12,237 nucleotides of DNA from Akkermansiaceae bacterium UBA985 (GTDB lineage: Bacteria; Verrucomicrobiota; Verrucomicrobiia; Verrucomicrobiales; Akkermansiaceae): positions 12,899-25,135 of the forward strand of contig DBBL01000184.1 of the NCBI GenBank assembly GCA_002292185.1, written 5' to 3'. The notes beneath the pieces are model-generated. The model was not told where the DNA came from, ran no database searches, and was given only the letters and a program-made list of their open reading frames with translations. The translations under genes were made by a program, and so were the position numbers. Positions 2,376-12,237 of this stretch are shown piece after piece; positions within the stretch are counted from its first letter, which is position 1, and every line of letters begins with the position of its first letter.

Positions 2376-3017
2376 ATGAAACTGATCGTCTTTGACTGTG
2401 ATTCCACTCTTTCCGCTATTGAAGGCATTGACGAGCTCGCAAGGGTCAATGGCCCCGAGACATTTGATAAAATCGAAGCATTAACCAATGCCGCCATGAA
2501 TGGCGAAGTTCCTATCGATGATATCTTTGCCCAGCGACTCGACATCATTCAACCGACTCTCCATACCTGCAAAAAGGTTGGGCAGCTCTACATTGACCAA
2601 ATTGAGCCCACGGCATTGTCTACCTTGGAGCTGCTGCGAGCCGGGGGCTGGGAGATCGTTATTGTTTCTGGTGGATTCACCCAGGTCATTGAGCCACTGG
2701 CCAAGCACCTCGGCGTTGAGCGCATCGAAGCCGTCCCACTCAAGTTTCACGAAGACGGGAGCTACGCAGGCTATGACACATCAGCTCCACCGACTCGCAA
2801 CGGAGGCAAGCCTGAGATTATCCAGCAGCTCAGAGCTGAGCTCCATCCCGATTACATCGTCATGGTTGGAGATGGCATCTCAGACTTAGAAGCACAGAGT
2901 GTTGTCGACACCTTCATTGGCTTTGGGCGCTATGCCGCTCGAGAAAAAGTAAAGTCGGAAGCCGACCACTTCGTTTTGTCTCTGGACGAAATCCCCTCAA
3001 TGATCAGCATGCGCTGA
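2376..3017 (+). CDS. serB: Phosphoserine phosphatase (SerB-type HAD hydrolase)
   Basis: A 213-residue HAD-superfamily phosphatase. The motifs are: I, DCDST with nucleophile Asp7 and acid/base Asp9; II, VIVSGGF with Ser98; III, Lys145 in GGKPEI; IV, VGDGISDLEA with Asp166 and Asp170. The cap region includes Glu17 in AIEGIDELAR, matching the substrate-side Glu of SerB proteins. SerB hydrolyses O-phospho-L-serine to serine, the last step of the phosphorylated serine pathway. Length fits a single-domain SerB without an N-terminal ACT domain. The ATG at 2376 places motif I at residue 7, as usual. It lies between hisI and dnaB on the same strand, with 84- and 328-base gaps, so it may be transcribed with hisI. 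A related HAD phosphatase of other specificity cannot be fully excluded. Confidence 0.88.
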   Translation: MKLIVFDCDSTLSAIEGIDELARVNGPETFDKIEALTNAAMNGEVPIDDIFAQRLDIIQPTLHTCKKVGQLYIDQIEPTALSTLELLRAGGWEIVIVSGGFTQVIEPLAKHLGVERIEAVPLKFHEDGSYAGYDTSAPPTRNGGKPEIIQQLRAELHPDYIVMVGDGISDLEAQSVVDTFIGFGRYAAREKVKSEADHFVLSLDEIPSMISMR

Positions 3018-6271: not shown

Positions 6272-6366
6272 GCATCCCTTACGCATTTTCAGTGCATCCC
6301 TTCAGCGCATCCCCTTTGCACCCTCCAATGCATCAGTGCACCCCCTAAGCACCCCCAGTGCATCCA
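6272..6366 (+). repeat. Degenerate 11-bp tandem repeat (GCAYCCC core) in the rpoN leader
   Basis: The core GCAYCCC or a close variant starts at 6272, 6283 (GCATTTT), 6294, 6307, 6318, 6330 (GCATCA), 6338, 6349 and 6360. Most spacings are 11 bp and all lie within 8-13 bp. The last unit abuts the rpoN start. The array is inside the predicted leader of the sigma-54 promoter at 6178-6193. It may be a degenerate minisatellite, a phased protein-binding array, or an RNA-level element. The function is unknown. Confidence 0.6.
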
Positions 6367-6369
6367 GTC

Positions 6370-7770
6370 ATGCCATCAGCCGGCCTCCATCAAAATCTTT
6401 CTCAACAGCAGGTCCTCTCGCCCCAGATGCGCCAGAGCCTAGAGATTCTGCAGGCCAGCAGCATGGAGCTAAGCCAACTCCTGAGTCAGGTTGCGGAGAT
6501 GAACCCAACCCTGGAAATCACCGAGGATCACGATCAAGTCGATGAGAGCCAGCCCGCTGATGCAGAAACCGATTATGAAAACCTCTCCGAGTTTGATGAT
6601 TACTGGCGCGAGGATCAGATCCTCATGCACGGGACCCGCACCCATACATCTGATGATGAGGAAAGACGTGAGTTTCTCTACAACTCCATTGTCGCACCGC
6701 AAACACTTCAGCAGCATCTCGTCGAACAGCTCAACCACGCAGCTCTCGATGACGATACCTATGTGGTAGCCGAACACCTCATAGGTGCTATTAATGATGC
6801 CGGTTTTCTGGATGAATCCATTGAGGACATCGCCGCGAACTCCACCTTCCCCCTCAAGCAACTCCGCTCCGCCCTTGCCCTGCTTCAGAGATTTGATCCC
6901 CCAGGTGTCGCTACAGAAAACCTCACTGAATCATTATTACTCCAACTTCAGCTCCAAGGCATGGGAGGATCACTGGAGAGTCGCATTGTTGACCAGCACC
7001 TTGATGACCTAGCTCGTCGCCGTTTTGGCGATATTACGCGAGCTCTCGGAGTCTCCCAAGAAGCTGTTATTGAAGCTGCCGAGCACATCTCCACACTGAA
7101 CCCTAATCCAGGAGCCGCATTTGACCCGACATCCAACCCCCATGTCAGCGCTGATCTTGAATTACGCCGAGATGCCGAGGGGAAATACTACGCCCACCTC
7201 ACCGGCGACCATTTACCCAAACTGCAAATCAGCAACCATTATAAAGACTTGCTAGCCAAGCTGAGTTCAGACCCTAAAGCACGCAAGTTCCTCAAAGACA
7301 ACATCCACGAAGGCAGACAAATCATCAGCGCCCTCAGCCAACGCCAAGAAACCCTATTGAAGATCGGCACTGAGCTCGTTAAACGCCAGCCCGACTTCAT
7401 TGCACATGGCCTTACCAAGCTCCGCCCCATGACCATGCAGGACATCGCGGAAACCGTCGGTGTGCACGCAGCGACTATCTCCCGTGCTGTTTCTGGAAAA
7501 TACATTCTCACGCCGCACGGACTGATGGAGCTGCGCACCTTCTTCTCCTCAGGCTACACCACCCAACAAGGCACGGAAATTTCCAACACCGGGGTCCGTG
7601 AAGCTATCCAACAACTCGTCAGCCACGAAGACACCGCCAAACCCCTCTCCGACACCGCCATTGAAAAACAACTCAAGGCCAAGGGCATCAAGGTAGCACG
7701 CAGAACCATCGCCAAATACCGCGATCAACTTGGCATCCTACCGTCCCATTTGAGAAAAAAACACTCCTGA
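6370..7770 (+). CDS. rpoN: RNA polymerase sigma-54 factor RpoN
   Basis: RpoN directs RNA polymerase to -24/-12 promoters and needs AAA+ enhancer-binding activators to open DNA. From the ATG at 6370 the protein has 466 residues. Region I is Gln/Leu-rich (HQNLSQQQVLSPQMRQSLEI, about residues 7-26, continuing to NPTLEI). Region II is acidic (many Asp/Glu at about 50-75). The core-binding domain follows, then the helix-turn-helix (DIAETVGVHAATISRAVSGK, about 357-376). The diagnostic RpoN box ARRTIAKYR occupies about 443-451, near the C-terminus as usual. A GTG at 6358 would add four residues. Earlier starts are blocked by an in-frame TAA at 6346. The leader holds the 11-bp repeat and, further up, a sigma-54-type promoter, suggesting autoregulation. 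The hpf and PTS genes that often follow rpoN in Proteobacteria are absent. Confidence 0.95.
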   Translation: MPSAGLHQNLSQQQVLSPQMRQSLEILQASSMELSQLLSQVAEMNPTLEITEDHDQVDESQPADAETDYENLSEFDDYWREDQILMHGTRTHTSDDEERREFLYNSIVAPQTLQQHLVEQLNHAALDDDTYVVAEHLIGAINDAGFLDESIEDIAANSTFPLKQLRSALALLQRFDPPGVATENLTESLLLQLQLQGMGGSLESRIVDQHLDDLARRRFGDITRALGVSQEAVIEAAEHISTLNPNPGAAFDPTSNPHVSADLELRRDAEGKYYAHLTGDHLPKLQISNHYKDLLAKLSSDPKARKFLKDNIHEGRQIISALSQRQETLLKIGTELVKRQPDFIAHGLTKLRPMTMQDIAETVGVHAATISRAVSGKYILTPHGLMELRTFFSSGYTTQQGTEISNTGVREAIQQLVSHEDTAKPLSDTAIEKQLKAKGIKVARRTIAKYRDQLGILPSHLRKKHS

Positions 7771-7874: not shown

Positions 7875-9089
7875 ATGAGTGCAGTTAAGAATTTACCCGA
7901 TTATTTGAGCAAAGAAATCTTATTGAACCCTGAACAGCGCGTATTCCCCGATTTTAGCGTATCGAGGTTATTGGATACTGTCTTCAAACCAACACAAGGT
8001 TGCCGTGTTTGCATCTTAACTGATTTCGATGAGCCCGAGCGCTGGATGAAAGATTTCGCCTTCTTAAAATCCGATGGGTTTGAGGTGCAGAAAAACGCCC
8101 ATCATTATTTTTACGAAAGCCTAAGAGACGGCGTTATGGATGAACTAGGTATGACTGGTGGCGAAATGTTTGCCTACCGTTGCACCCATGGCTCCAATCT
8201 GGATCTCTCCGATGAGGTCTGGGATAGCGAAGGCAAAGAGCTTTCTCTGGATCGCGATATTTATACAAACTACGATATCGTCCTCTGTATTTCCACCTTC
8301 TCGGCAACAGCTCCCCTCACCGAGCGCTGCAAGGTGTTCGGCTTCCGTGGAGCAACCATGCACGGCATGAATGATATCATCTTACGCTCCGGCCTAGCCG
8401 TGAACTACGAAGAAGTCTCAGATGATGCCGAAAAAATCCGCCAAGCCCTGAACCGCGCCGACGAGGTAGAAATTGATTTTGAACTAGAAGACGGCCGCAT
8501 CCTTACCGCCTGGTTAGGACTGGACGGACAGGAGGCACAAAAGTCGCATGGCCTCTGCCAAGGAACCAAGCCCGACATCGCCAACCTACCCGCAGGCGAG
8601 GTCTACTTCGTCCCCGTTGATGCCCGCGGTCAATTCCCCATGAAGTATGAAGATGGCACCCTAGGCATCCTCGAAGTGGAAAACCGCGACGTGAAGTCCT
8701 CCAGCATTATCGAGGGTAACCAATCAACCATCGATGCGCACAATGCCCTCCTAGCTGACGACCCAATGACAGGCACGCTGGGAGAACTTGGATTTGGCAC
8801 GCAAGTGCTTCCCGTTTCCTACCAAGACATCCAAGACGAGAAGGTTCTTGGAACCTGCCATTTAGCTACTGGTCGTGATGACCATCTCGGTGGAGACATT
8901 GTTCCCGACATGTTTAAAGAACACGTCAACTCCTCACATGACGACATCCTTTTCGCCCCCCACAAAACACCCAACTTCAACCTCAAAGAGGTCCGCATGA
9001 AGTGGGGCAAGGGTGACGATTGCCGCACTGAAGTCCTCATCCAAGACTTCAAGCCAGCGCCTTACATGATCAATTCACTGGCGCGCTAA
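7875..9089 (+). CDS. M29-like metallo-aminopeptidase (aminopeptidase T/AmpS-type)
   Basis: A 404-residue cytoplasmic protein without signal peptide. Its C-terminal half carries the M29 pattern: LPAGEV (239-243, Glu242), TLGELGFGTQ (Glu304), DEKVLGTCHLATG (Glu322, His329) and NSSHDDIL (His355, Asp357), matching family blocks of the type GElgiGtN, DEK..GT.H.A.G and S..H.D. The Glu/His/Asp residues are the expected two-metal ligands. M29 enzymes remove N-terminal amino acids from peptides. The N-terminal half (about 1-230) is more divergent, so exact substrate and activity are uncertain. The ATG at 7875 has no obvious Shine-Dalgarno. The last 185 bp (8905-9089) are repeated at 10439-10623 with only synonymous changes, so the 3' end of this gene may have been supplied by recombination. 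First-half codons look more A/T-ending than later ones, judged by eye. Confidence 0.72.
   Translation: MSAVKNLPDYLSKEILLNPEQRVFPDFSVSRLLDTVFKPTQGCRVCILTDFDEPERWMKDFAFLKSDGFEVQKNAHHYFYESLRDGVMDELGMTGGEMFAYRCTHGSNLDLSDEVWDSEGKELSLDRDIYTNYDIVLCISTFSATAPLTERCKVFGFRGATMHGMNDIILRSGLAVNYEEVSDDAEKIRQALNRADEVEIDFELEDGRILTAWLGLDGQEAQKSHGLCQGTKPDIANLPAGEVYFVPVDARGQFPMKYEDGTLGILEVENRDVKSSSIIEGNQSTIDAHNALLADDPMTGTLGELGFGTQVLPVSYQDIQDEKVLGTCHLATGRDDHLGGDIVPDMFKEHVNSSHDDILFAPHKTPNFNLKEVRMKWGKGDDCRTEVLIQDFKPAPYMINSLAR
8905..9089 (+). repeat. Copy A of 185-bp direct repeat (3' end of the M29 gene)
   Basis: This copy is in phase with the intact peptidase gene and ends at its TAA stop. It aligns without gaps to 10439-10623 at an offset of 1534, with about 13 mismatches (about 93% identity). 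Every mismatch is at a synonymous site or in the stop codon. Similarity stops abruptly at both ends. Confidence 0.9.
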
Positions 9090-9133: not shown

Positions 9134-10432
9134 TCAATCTCCGACCATCAAAGAAAGCATTTGTTCTACATCTTTGAGATCGAAGATAATATCTGAGAAA
9201 TTATCTAAAGCATCTTCCTTAATGGTATCTTTTAAGGGCTTACTTTTTAGATAATAATAATCTAAATTAAGAATGTTAGATATCCCCCAATACATAGGAT
9301 TCACATTATCCGCCTGAAACAACTCCAAAACTTTAGCCCCCTCATTACAAAACACCAAATTCGTTAGGCTCGCACCATGGGGAGAAACCACCATCTCACA
9401 AGACGACAACAATTCCGCTTGCTGTGACACTGACATGGCATCAAGGCTTACGCTCTCAAAGCCGTATGTGCACAATAAAGCTTCTAATTGATCCTCATTT
9501 AAAATCTTACGATACAGAACATTTTTTCTATTGAGGTATATTCTCCGTGTCTTTTCTCGGTGGAGATTCCCTTTGAATAAATTCCTTATAAAATGGACCG
9601 TTTCGGGTCGGAAAAAGCAATCCACTCCATTCCTAGTACGTGATATAACGACAAGTTCTCTCGCACACACATGCGGGTGCCAATATTCATCTATTATTTT
9701 TTCACTTGGTATACCAAGCGCCCTAAGGGTCTCCTTTTGATACTTGGTTCTCGGCGAGTTTATATAAAAATAATCAATAGCATCGAATAATGCGTTATTG
9801 CTAGCTTGCAAGATTTCAATTCTCGGAATTAATTCCATCATCCAGTGGTAATAATTACCTTGAGCAAAGGGAGTGGCTAAAACCAACACCCTACCATCTA
9901 TATATTCTGCAGGCTTAGTTGCTATATCAGTAGAAAAAACATCATGAGTTTTGTCAACAGGGATATAGCTAGGCCCCGACATTGATTGATGCATCGACAG
10001 CTCTTCTATCAATCTATTATCATGCGACAGAACATAACCCTGCGCAAACACCCGCCCCTCTGGTATCACCGCAATAAATTGCGGCTTTAATTGCAGTGTT
10101 TGATAATTAGCGAAAACTTCACTAACATCATCTACCAATGTCTTAGGTTTGTTCATCACAAACGCCTCCTGGTTTTTTACCGCCTCAAAGTAGAAGCCAT
10201 TATCAGCAGTATATTCTTCCAAAGAGCTTATGAACTCCTGTGGCACATCATATTTCTTCCATTTGTAGATGTAACTCTTAATCTTAAGTTGAACTTTGAT
10301 GATACAACTGTGCAACCATTTCATAAACCCATTTGAAATAGGGCTTTTAAAGGCTAAAGTTAATAATCTCTGTAGTAATTGACGAATAATAATTACTGTT
10401 AAAATGTTAAGCCTATGAATTAGCAAGCGCAT
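9134..10432 (-). CDS. Glycosyltransferase family 61 (DUF563) protein
   Basis: A 432-residue protein with the GT61/DUF563 signature: YYHWMMELIPRIEIL (194-208), TRRIYLNRKNVLYRKILNED (295-314), and SVSLDAMSVSQQAELLSSCE then MVVSPHGASLTNLVFC (347-362). GT61 enzymes transfer sugars, often in exopolysaccharide, capsule or LPS-type glycan assembly; donor and acceptor cannot be predicted here. The N-terminus (about 1-55) is hydrophobic and basic and could sit at the membrane, or translation may start at Met37 (10324). The gene is clearly AT-richer than its neighbours (sampled lines 23-35% G+C), suggesting foreign origin. It lies alone between the two copies of the 185-bp peptidase repeat. Its 5' end is 6 bases from copy B, leaving no room for its own promoter outside that copy if 10432 is the start. 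Confidence 0.8.
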   Translation of the reverse strand: MRLLIHRLNILTVIIIRQLLQRLLTLAFKSPISNGFMKWLHSCIIKVQLKIKSYIYKWKKYDVPQEFISSLEEYTADNGFYFEAVKNQEAFVMNKPKTLVDDVSEVFANYQTLQLKPQFIAVIPEGRVFAQGYVLSHDNRLIEELSMHQSMSGPSYIPVDKTHDVFSTDIATKPAEYIDGRVLVLATPFAQGNYYHWMMELIPRIEILQASNNALFDAIDYFYINSPRTKYQKETLRALGIPSEKIIDEYWHPHVCARELVVISRTRNGVDCFFRPETVHFIRNLFKGNLHREKTRRIYLNRKNVLYRKILNEDQLEALLCTYGFESVSLDAMSVSQQAELLSSCEMVVSPHGASLTNLVFCNEGAKVLELFQADNVNPMYWGISNILNLDYYYLKSKPLKDTIKEDALDNFSDIIFDLKDVEQMLSLMVGD

Positions 10433-10438
10433 ATTATG

Positions 10439-10623
10439 CCGACATGTTTAAAGAACACGTCAACTCCTCGCATGACGACATCCTTTTTGCTCCCCACAAA
10501 ACACCCAACTTCAATCTTAAGGAGGTCCGCATGAAGTGGGGTAAGGGTGATGATTGCCGCACTGAAGTCCTCATCCAGGACTTTAAGCCAGCGCCTTACA
10601 TGATCAATTCACTAGCGCGATAG
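10439..10623 (+). pseudogene. Detached 3' fragment of the M29 peptidase gene (copy B)
   Basis: From 10441 the fragment encodes DMFKEHVNSSHDDILF... to MINSLAR and a TAG stop: 60 codons identical in protein to residues 345-404 of the peptidase at 7875-9089. It has no upstream body or start, so it is not a functional gene. Differences from copy A are all third-position or stop changes, for example TCA/TCG, TTC/TTT, AAC/AAT, CAA/CAG and CGC/CGA. Both copies must therefore have evolved as functional gene ends before coming together. By analogy with element insertion into the 3' end of icd, copy B could be the displaced native end and copy A the incoming one, but the reverse is possible. Confidence 0.88.
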
Positions 10624-10692: not shown

Positions 10693-11367
10693 CTACTCAG
10701 CCCCCTTCAACTTGGATTGACTTGATTCAGACAATTTAGAGATATCATACCACAAAGCTTTACCGCTGGGCAAAAGAAAGAGAACCCTATCACCCTCGAT
10801 CTCTTGAACCGCAGCCTTGATTTTCTTGCCCGCAGAATTTTCCCATTGCTTAAATTCAGGCGCCTTCTCTTTTTCTTCCTCTTTACTGACATTCGCTTCA
10901 TCTGCGGAGTCAACACCCCCAATCACGTCAACATCCTCAAGGGACTTACGAAGCTCTCGAACAGCCTTTCTCATATCAGCCTTCAGATCAGAGTAAGGCA
11001 CAGCATCGATCCCCTTTTCGCCGTCTGAGGTAGTGATGAAAACCATTGGGATGGTATTACCACCTTTTGCGCGCACATCCATAACCCCTTTAGGTAAGGA
11101 CTCCTTGTCTTTTTTACTATCAGCAAAGACAACAATACCGACGGTTTTAAATGATTTAAAGGCCTCCAAACTGGCGGCCACGCATGGGCCTCAGCTCGTG
11201 CCTGGATCAGTATAAACAAAGACGAGCGGCTTTTCTTTCTTGGTAGCTTTAACGATAGCCTCATCCAGCTCGTCCATTCCATGAATCGAACGAGGAATTT
11301 TCATATCAGCAGAAAGCACGCTAAATAAGCATACAAATAAGGCCGCCGTGGCTAAAAAAACTTTCAT
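10693..11367 (-). CDS. Secreted thioredoxin-like protein with SHD1-like domain; candidate selenoprotein with in-frame TGA (UGPC)
   Basis: Read through one TGA, the frame gives 224 residues from the ATG at 11367. Residues 1-20 (MKVFLATAALFVCLFSVLSA) form a signal peptide. A thioredoxin-like fold follows (about 28-130): KPLVFVYTDPGTS, then residue 59 = TGA (11191-11193), then GPC (60-62), then VAASLEAF. The TGA sits exactly at the first Cys of a CGPC redox motif, so selenocysteine (UGPC) is the natural reading. A cis-Pro candidate, Pro107 in GNTIPMVFI, supports the fold. A Lys/Glu-rich linker (about 150-172) leads to an SHD1-like domain (about 173-222): FKQWENSAGKKIKAAVQEIE, DRVLFLL, SGKALWYDISKLSES, a module common in planctomycetal and verrucomicrobial secreted proteins. 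The frame continues for 165 clean codons after the TGA with no frameshift. A SECIS-like hairpin lies downstream of the TGA. The likely location is the periplasm, as a thiol/disulfide or peroxide-handling protein. A nonsense mutation or sequencing error is the alternative. Confidence 0.72.
11161..11179 (-). promoter_or_regulatory. Candidate bacterial SECIS hairpin
   Basis: On the minus strand, 11 bases after the TGA, GGCCGCCAGTTTGGAGGCC can fold as GGCC/GGCC, a G-A mismatch, CCA/TGG and a GTT loop. The loop begins with G, 19 bases after the TGA. Bacterial SECIS elements are recalled as stem-loops immediately 3' of UGA with the apical loop about 16-37 bases away and a G in the first loop positions, and this fits. 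The stem is short, so it is suggestive only. Confidence 0.45.
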
Positions 11368-11449
11368 TGCTTTAACCCTAAGGACCTTACCATGAGGCGT
11401 CGAGCAAATATCCGCTGTAAGCTTAACCTTCAGCAAGAAAACAAGCTTA

Positions 11450-11516: not shown

Positions 11517-12237
11517 TTAGTAGCGATAAGGCTCCGGCTTGTAAGGGCCATTGACTGGAACACCGATGTAATCAGCCTGATCTTGGCTGAGAACGGTGAG
11601 CTTACAACCAATCTTCTCGAGGTGAAGTCGAGCGACTTCCTCGTCAAGATGCTTTGGCAATACCTTTACTTCACCAGCCTTGTAGTTGTCTTTGTTTTTC
11701 CAAAGATCAATCTGGGCCAGTGTCTGGTTAGCAAAGCTGTTGGACATCACAAAGCTTGGGTGGCCTGTGGCACAACCAAGGTTTACCAGGCGGCCTTCTG
11801 CAAGCATGTAGAGGCTGTTACCCGTTGGGAATGTGTATTTGTCAACCTGTGGCTTGATGTTGAGATGCTCAACACCCTCAGCCTTGCTTAGAGAATCCAT
11901 CTGGATCTCATTATCAAAGTGACCAATATTACAAACGATCGCTTGATCCTTCATCTTCTCCATATGCTCAAGACGGATGATGTCGTAGTTACCCGTGGTG
12001 GTGACATAAATATCTCCCCAGCCGAGGGTGTCCTCAACGGTGAGAACACGGTAACCTTCCATCGCTGCCTGCAGCGCACAGATAGGGTCGATCTCAGTGA
12101 CCACGACTTGTGCTCCTTGGCCACGTAGCGCCTGAGCACAACCCTTGCCAACATCTCCGTAGCCGCAAACAACGGCCACTTTGCCGGAAATCATCACATC
12201 GGTGGCACGCTTGATAGCATCAACGAGCGATTCACGA
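11517..12237 (-). CDS. ahcY: S-adenosylhomocysteine hydrolase (adenosylhomocysteinase); 5' part beyond window
   Basis: This is the C-terminal 239 or so codons; the frame is open at the right edge, so the internal GTG at 12197 is not the true start. The first visible residues are [15 protein letters not shown]. Next come the NAD-binding Rossmann motif [12 protein letters not shown], then [35 protein letters not shown], and [20 protein letters not shown]. The C-terminal tail KPEPYRY is the conserved end in which a Lys and a Tyr reach the NAD of the neighbouring subunit. The enzyme reversibly splits S-adenosylhomocysteine into adenosine and homocysteine, recycling the methylation by-product; cytoplasmic tetramer in known family members. 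Followed by a strong terminator at 11450-11490. Confidence 0.97.

Follow-up and report, generated by a model that had tools for sequence, protein, structure and literature searches.

The DNA analyzed here, referred to below as the window, is a stretch of 12,237 nt from a contig of the Akkermansiaceae bacterium UBA985 (genome G000), and carries on its minus strand a gene interrupted by a single in-frame TGA codon. Coordinates refer to the whole window, and the gene is read from 11367 to 10693. Translation gives one frame, which starts at the ATG at 11367, runs through 58 codons to the TGA at 11193-11191, and continues for 165 codons to the TAG at 10695-10693. The TGA, at codon 59, is the sole interruption of the 224-residue frame, and the residues flanking it read VYTDPGTS-U-GPC-VAASLEAF, where U stands for selenocysteine (Sec). 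A mechanical list of open reading frames (ORFs, translation table 11) holds two pieces, one of 81 residues from a TTG at 11436 and one of 162 residues from a GTG at 11181. This is exactly the split that an earlier, sequence-only reading of this DNA had expected of gene callers, and its claim that the two ORFs are one frame broken by the TGA alone agrees with both the translation and the list. The product is a predicted secreted thioredoxin-fold protein, and the TGA, which is followed by a predicted hairpin shared with relatives, is most likely decoded as Sec (probability of roughly 95%). Sec insertion is strongly supported by sequence comparison; export and a thiol/disulfide redox function are presumed for the protein.

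Features of the predicted selenoprotein gene and its upstream neighbor
Feature	Position	Strand	Basis
Predicted selenoprotein gene, 224 residues, Sec as residue 59, stop TAG	10693..11367	(-)	translation, relatives, dN/dS
In-frame TGA, most likely read as Sec, residue 59, first of UGPC	11191..11193	(-)	alignment and sel gene co-occurrence
TGC codon, Cys62, likely resolving residue of UGPC	11182..11184	(-)	sequence, family alignment
Predicted SECIS hairpin GGCCGCC-AGTTT-GGAGGCC, one internal mismatch, -9.2 kcal/mol	11161..11179	(-)	folding, covariation
Apical loop AGTTT of predicted SECIS, 18 nt past TGA	11168-11172	(-)	folding
Putative signal peptide MKVFLATAALFVCLFSVLSA	11308..11367	(-)	judged by eye, no prediction program; helix 2-15 in structure model
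Predicted thioredoxin-fold domain, residues 25-146	10930..11295	(-)	alignment, structure model
Pro107, cis-Pro position	11047-11049	(-)	alignment, structure model
SHD1-like small beta-strand domain, residues 172-224	10696..10854	(-)	structure model, family profile
S-adenosylhomocysteine hydrolase, upstream neighbor, 3' part inside window	11517..12236	(-)	Pfam

A six-frame search over 98 related genomes gave matches in 65 of them. The 30 best-match loci were fetched automatically and one (L021, whose match starts at residue 88) was left out. Among the remaining 29, the column of codon 59 holds TGA in 22, Cys in six (G044, G052, G046, G031, G056, and G039), and neither in one (G027). This exchange agrees with the placement of the TGA at the first cysteine of a thioredoxin CGPC motif, as the sequence-only reading had it. 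The comparison with related Verrucomicrobiota that it had suggested shows TGA or Cys at this site, with close relatives keeping the TGA instead of a decayed gene. A further 15 loci were added, picked because a TGA had already been flagged in the search; U occupies the column in 14 of them, and G077a has its UGPC displaced by one. The closest relatives by identity, G005 (94%), G003 (88%), and G006 (78%), are independent assemblies with the identical TGA. Since the same column holds TGA in 22 of 29 loci and the downstream frame is under purifying selection overall, the placement of the TGA is not a matter of chance.

Alignment and a structure model of the window protein (P0001) place UxxC at the start of a helix and a cis-Pro position on what is predicted to be a thioredoxin fold, with UGPC as active site and Pro107, within NTIPMVF, as the cis-Pro by position. 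The cis-Pro had been located at TIPMVF from the letters alone, and Pro107 is indeed invariant, as is residue 59, among the 35 members of alignment A4, where Cys62 is kept in more than 90%. P0001 itself has no match over cut-off in Pfam or NCBIfam, thioredoxin models included. The SHD1-like end that had also been proposed stands at the level of the family, where the 35-member profile matches the SHD1 domain of yeast Sla1 (2hbp, E 1.6e-4), but not for the single protein, as P0001 alone is not matched by SHD1 (PF03983) in Pfam; only the distant L036, of nine relatives scanned, passes that cut-off. When taken alone, the SHD1-like C-terminal domain matches many other open frames throughout the phylum, the longest of 1021 residues.

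According to the proposed mechanism, SelB would bind the hairpin just 3' of the UGA and bring Sec-tRNA(Sec), ribosomes would read on past the UGA to the TAG, and the protein would be exported. The selenolate of Sec59 could then attack disulfides, peroxides, or sulfenates, with Cys62 resolving the selenenylsulfide, while the SHD1-like domain may tether the protein or bind a partner or surface; reductase, isomerase, or peroxidase partner are candidate directions. Sec could also be correct in a protein that is no thiol/disulfide oxidoreductase, and that has instead another chemistry such as metal binding or a peroxidase-like role. Paralogs with UGPS, where Ser takes the place of the resolving residue (L100 and L101, G092), or with UGNU and two TGA codons (L095, G077) would suit such a role, as would some Cys forms, CPLA or CPKT, that have no second Cys. 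The constancy of residue 59, Pro107, and Cys62, together with the predicted thioredoxin fold, speaks for redox chemistry and leaves this alternative unlikely, though still a serious one.

The genome G000 (1.95 Mb, 199 contigs, 84.6% complete) encodes most of the machinery that Sec insertion requires. On contig C52, a run of N divides selA into two pieces, which score 243.8 and 185.8 bits and both fall short of the cut-off of 267.9; apart from that run, the gene aligns to two relatives without gaps. On C85, selB is over cut-off with 294.8 bits, and selD on C134 scores 369.4 bits. This last gene (TIGR00476; L119, G000:C134:9101-10027) is itself a second selenoprotein, of a known type. It encodes an unrelated enzyme but, like the window gene, has an in-frame TGA (within LASCAGU) and a downstream hairpin, here with GCAGGTTCTGC, and served as an internal positive control. 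The check for sel genes named by the sequence-only reading was thus answered for selA, selB, and selD, but not for tRNA-Sec (selC), which was not found in the assembly. Nor was it found in the assembly of the nearest relative, G005, but it is present in G003 and G006, of the same genus, between topoisomerase-like and hydrolase-like genes (read from translations). The 3-kb stretch around tRNA-Sec in G003 gives only short repeat-like matches to G000, and therefore the whole neighborhood, rather than the tRNA alone, is missing there. A related observation comes from L136 (G005:C121:1-1500), where at about 113-132 the final ~20 nt of tRNA-Sec adjoin unrelated DNA. This junction resembles the distal boundary of an element that has inserted into the tRNA-Sec gene, and may explain the gap in G005. 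Because the model RF01852 also gives weak signals on Leu and Ser tRNAs, it is not decisive alone; of 30 loci checked with ARAGORN, 28 were confirmed as tRNA-Sec.

Over the 98 related genomes, selA is found over cut-off in 46 and selB in 45. In the 29-locus set, every one of the 22 TGA genomes shows a selA match, selB over cut-off, or both, and the remaining seven have neither. A tally made by hand on the 46 genomes whose match extends over residue 59 finds a selA match in 30 of the 32 with a TGA row (the TGA position being directly read in 28 of these 32) versus one of the 14 without (p 1.4e-8). The two TGA-row genomes without a selA match, G006 and G063, both have selB and tRNA-Sec. A wider search, through 115 genomes of the phylum, says little on this co-occurrence, because selA is over cut-off in just four of them, plus the window's own in pieces. 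Its rows with one TGA and no selA match (G174, G203, G126, G056, G123, and G108) were rejected as spurious; in their DNA, the TGA closes a shorter protein and Cys or another residue stands at the site.

The absence of tRNA-Sec from the G000 assembly would be in line with the TGA being read as another amino acid, by a suppressor tRNA or through leakiness of the release factor. However, among the genomes examined the TGA at this site is read only where selA and/or selB is present, and selD of the same genome has its own in-frame TGA. TGA is also the true stop of three other genes of the window (2376-3017, 6358-7770, and 9134-10432), for which reason a genome-wide change of the code was set aside. 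Reading as another amino acid is accordingly very improbable.

The bacterial Sec insertion sequence (bSECIS) is delimited in section 5 of PMC13188914 by a loop of 3-9 nt with a G within its first two positions, a stem of 4-16 bp, a distance of 16-37 nt past the UGA, and a minimum free energy of at most -7.5. The hairpin of the window gene lies within these limits, with G as the second base of its loop AGUUU, a distance of 18 nt, an energy of -9.2 kcal/mol, and a stem of six pairs with one internal mismatch. In the alignment of the UGPC-like genes (20), a 5-nt loop is flanked by columns 15-21 and 27-33, which pair with each other in 81.2% of cells versus 71.3 in shuffled alignments, and 13 cells are altered on both sides versus 4.9. 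The covariation score is 0.297, compared with 0.141 for shuffled alignments (none of 500 as high) and at most 0.141 for slid structures, although these controls are somewhat flattering because the structure was first seen on the same sequences. In the UPTC/UVAC subgroup (11 genes), whose members are longer by one codon, the same hairpin lies 3 nt further downstream and also covaries (0.254 versus 0.156 shuffled, none of 500 as high). The loop motif CAGTKYG moves accordingly: it starts at nt +18 in most UGPC-like genes (18 of 20) and at +21 in all 11 of the subgroup. A serine codon at +7 is always AGT (18/18), compared with 104 of 716 among other Ser codons; the figure tested is 18/21, which includes three serines at +6 (p 2.5e-12). 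Folding energy alone is a weak test here, with a mean z of -0.97 right after the TGA (37 genes) versus -0.28 in other folding windows and no signal in several genes, and the useful tests are covariation and loop position. An Rfam scan of the window gave no match. The hairpin is best described as a predicted bacterial SECIS shared by relatives, and its conserved loop at a fixed position provides a search handle for further such genes.

These observations also bear on the proposal of two genes, one for a short secreted peptide with the TGA as its stop and the other for a 162-residue protein initiated at the GTG at 11181. Both ORFs exist mechanically, and the tail is present in databases, where 51 of 51 protein matches align solely downstream of the active site and 34 tails start at one and the same residue. 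Such a tail, however, would have neither a signal peptide nor the first part of the thioredoxin fold, the Cys forms of selA-less genomes are one continuous protein, and neither the covarying pairs nor the invariable AGT codon just past the TGA would have a role. The proposal is hence highly doubtful, and the database tails are better understood as the product of standard gene calling, which in each of the 51 matches found has lost the half of the protein that holds the active site.

Downstream of the TGA, the ratio of nonsynonymous to synonymous rates (dN/dS) is 0.21 against G005 (based on 29 differences), 0.094 against G003, and 0.087 against G006; upstream, G000 and G005 are identical. A pseudogene or a sequencing or assembly error, in which a Cys codon TGC or TGT had mutated to or been misread as TGA, needs a change of only one base and is conceivable in an assembly of 199 contigs, but is scarcely credible given that independent assemblies and 22 of 29 loci agree on the TGA, that the downstream frame is under purifying selection, and that 34 database tails share their start.

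Decoding as Sec, which the sequence-only reading had proposed, thus draws support from the covarying hairpin, from a Sec/Cys exchange that tracks selA and selB, and from the nesting of Cys forms among Sec forms. The nesting comes from an unrooted tree of 42 thioredoxin domains without outgroup (two of 44 rows, G027 and G077a, were dropped), where the six Cys rows sit in two places among Sec rows and well-supported branches force two changes. As there is no outgroup, the direction from Sec to Cys is read from this nesting alone.

Several results weigh against Sec decoding. Upstream of the TGA, dN/dS against G003 is 0.675 on a short piece, and the thioredoxin part downstream gives 0.606 against G005 on three differences only. 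Pairs changed on both sides are not in excess over shuffles, either in the UGPC-like genes (79 of 500 shuffles as high) or in the UPTC/UVAC subgroup (420 of 500), where further pair types are not above shuffles either. For the window gene, the most stable fold predicted for the 45 nt past the TGA (-11.0) is better than the conserved hairpin (-9.2) and the folding z is just -1.35. Taken by themselves, 13 of the 31 hairpins are at or below -7.5 kcal/mol. The machinery of G000 is incomplete as assembled: selA is fragmentary with both pieces below cut-off, selB spans model positions 2-342 only and ends at a contig edge, and tRNA-Sec is absent both by model and by similarity. Finally, G013, the lone selA holder without TGA among the 46 tallied genomes, has only a weak homolog (E 3.9e-4).

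Beyond the single gene, the data make it fairly likely that this is a Sec-first family of secreted thioredoxin-SHD1 proteins whose members diversified, inside a single order of Verrucomicrobiota, into UGPC, UPTC, UVAC, UGPS, and double-Sec UGNU forms, some of them in tandem. Sec would be the rule and Cys the exception, arising where the Sec machinery is absent, and the family would have gone unseen so far because gene callers cut at UGA. Tandem TGA-bearing thioredoxin-like genes lie on the same strand about 50 nt apart in G034:C51 (L020/L097) and about 20 nt apart in G012:C2 (L024/L096), and these side-by-side pairs probably form operons.

Thioredoxin-like families containing Sec, namely Trx-like 1, Trx-like 3, and GOS_C, are described in passages on the Sargasso Sea and GOS surveys (PMC1088965, PMC2398784). 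According to these passages, they share with the window family a microbial marine origin, a thioredoxin-like sequence, UxxC, and a SECIS-like element right after the UGA; an SHD1-like domain, which the window family has, goes unmentioned there. The comparison with GOS Trx-like 3 is by description only, so that the two may be the same family. GOS_C appears to be a different one, judging by its NCBIfam model NF045500 (so named in the passages of PMC13188914), which gives no match to P0001 or to the 35 A4 members. Chlamydial DsbH, the Xylella disulfide isomerase 3fk8, and Thioredoxin_7 proteins count among the closest known proteins, at 14% identity, and differ from the window family by its Sec at the first active-site position and the SHD1-like domain that follows.

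A second, distant UxxC group in the related genomes is ResA/TlpA-like (L036, L037, L099, L104, and L108). Its members in the tree (G032, G038, G008c, G058b, and G080) stand on a long branch with full support (3.2 changes per column) that separates them from the window family, and have a hairpin loop of their own, CTGGTTCAG, at +28 in four of five. L036 matches AhpC-TSA and SHD1 over cut-off and the ResA model below it; the ResA model also matches four A4 members.

The window family is not named in the passages seen of PMC13188914, PMC2398784, PMC1088965, PMC9312934, PMC12013277, and PMC4807772, and the word Verrucomicrobi is absent from the main text of PMC13188914, PMC2398784, PMC9312934, and PMC12013277. 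A literature search on selenoproteins with Verrucomicrobi, SHD1, or Akkermansiaceae returned nothing on the family by title or abstract start, subscription papers being mostly outside its coverage. Unless it is identical with Trx-like 3, the window family is probably new among selenoproteins, though its thioredoxin-like kind is known. It adds to Verrucomicrobiota a family in which Sec is more frequent than Cys in the sampled loci and whose window member has no Pfam or NCBIfam match.

The names of the window genes were read from translations and then checked with Pfam. The S-adenosylhomocysteine hydrolase neighbor is also found in G003, G005, and G006. On the other side, a glycosyltransferase-61 gene (PF04577, region 9134-10623) separates the selenoprotein gene from a conserved 404-aa gene (7875-9089), and is absent from this place in the same three relatives. 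A second copy of the 3' end of the 404-aa gene, of ~185 bp, is found at about 10440-10623 on the far side of the glycosyltransferase gene, which seems to have arrived together with this duplicated end, since the copy borders it. The 404-aa protein was considered as an aminopeptidase, but this was dropped for lack of a Pfam match at 1e-5. A short tandem repeat (6302-6364, period 31, 2.1 copies) lies where the sigma-54 gene (6358-7770) begins.
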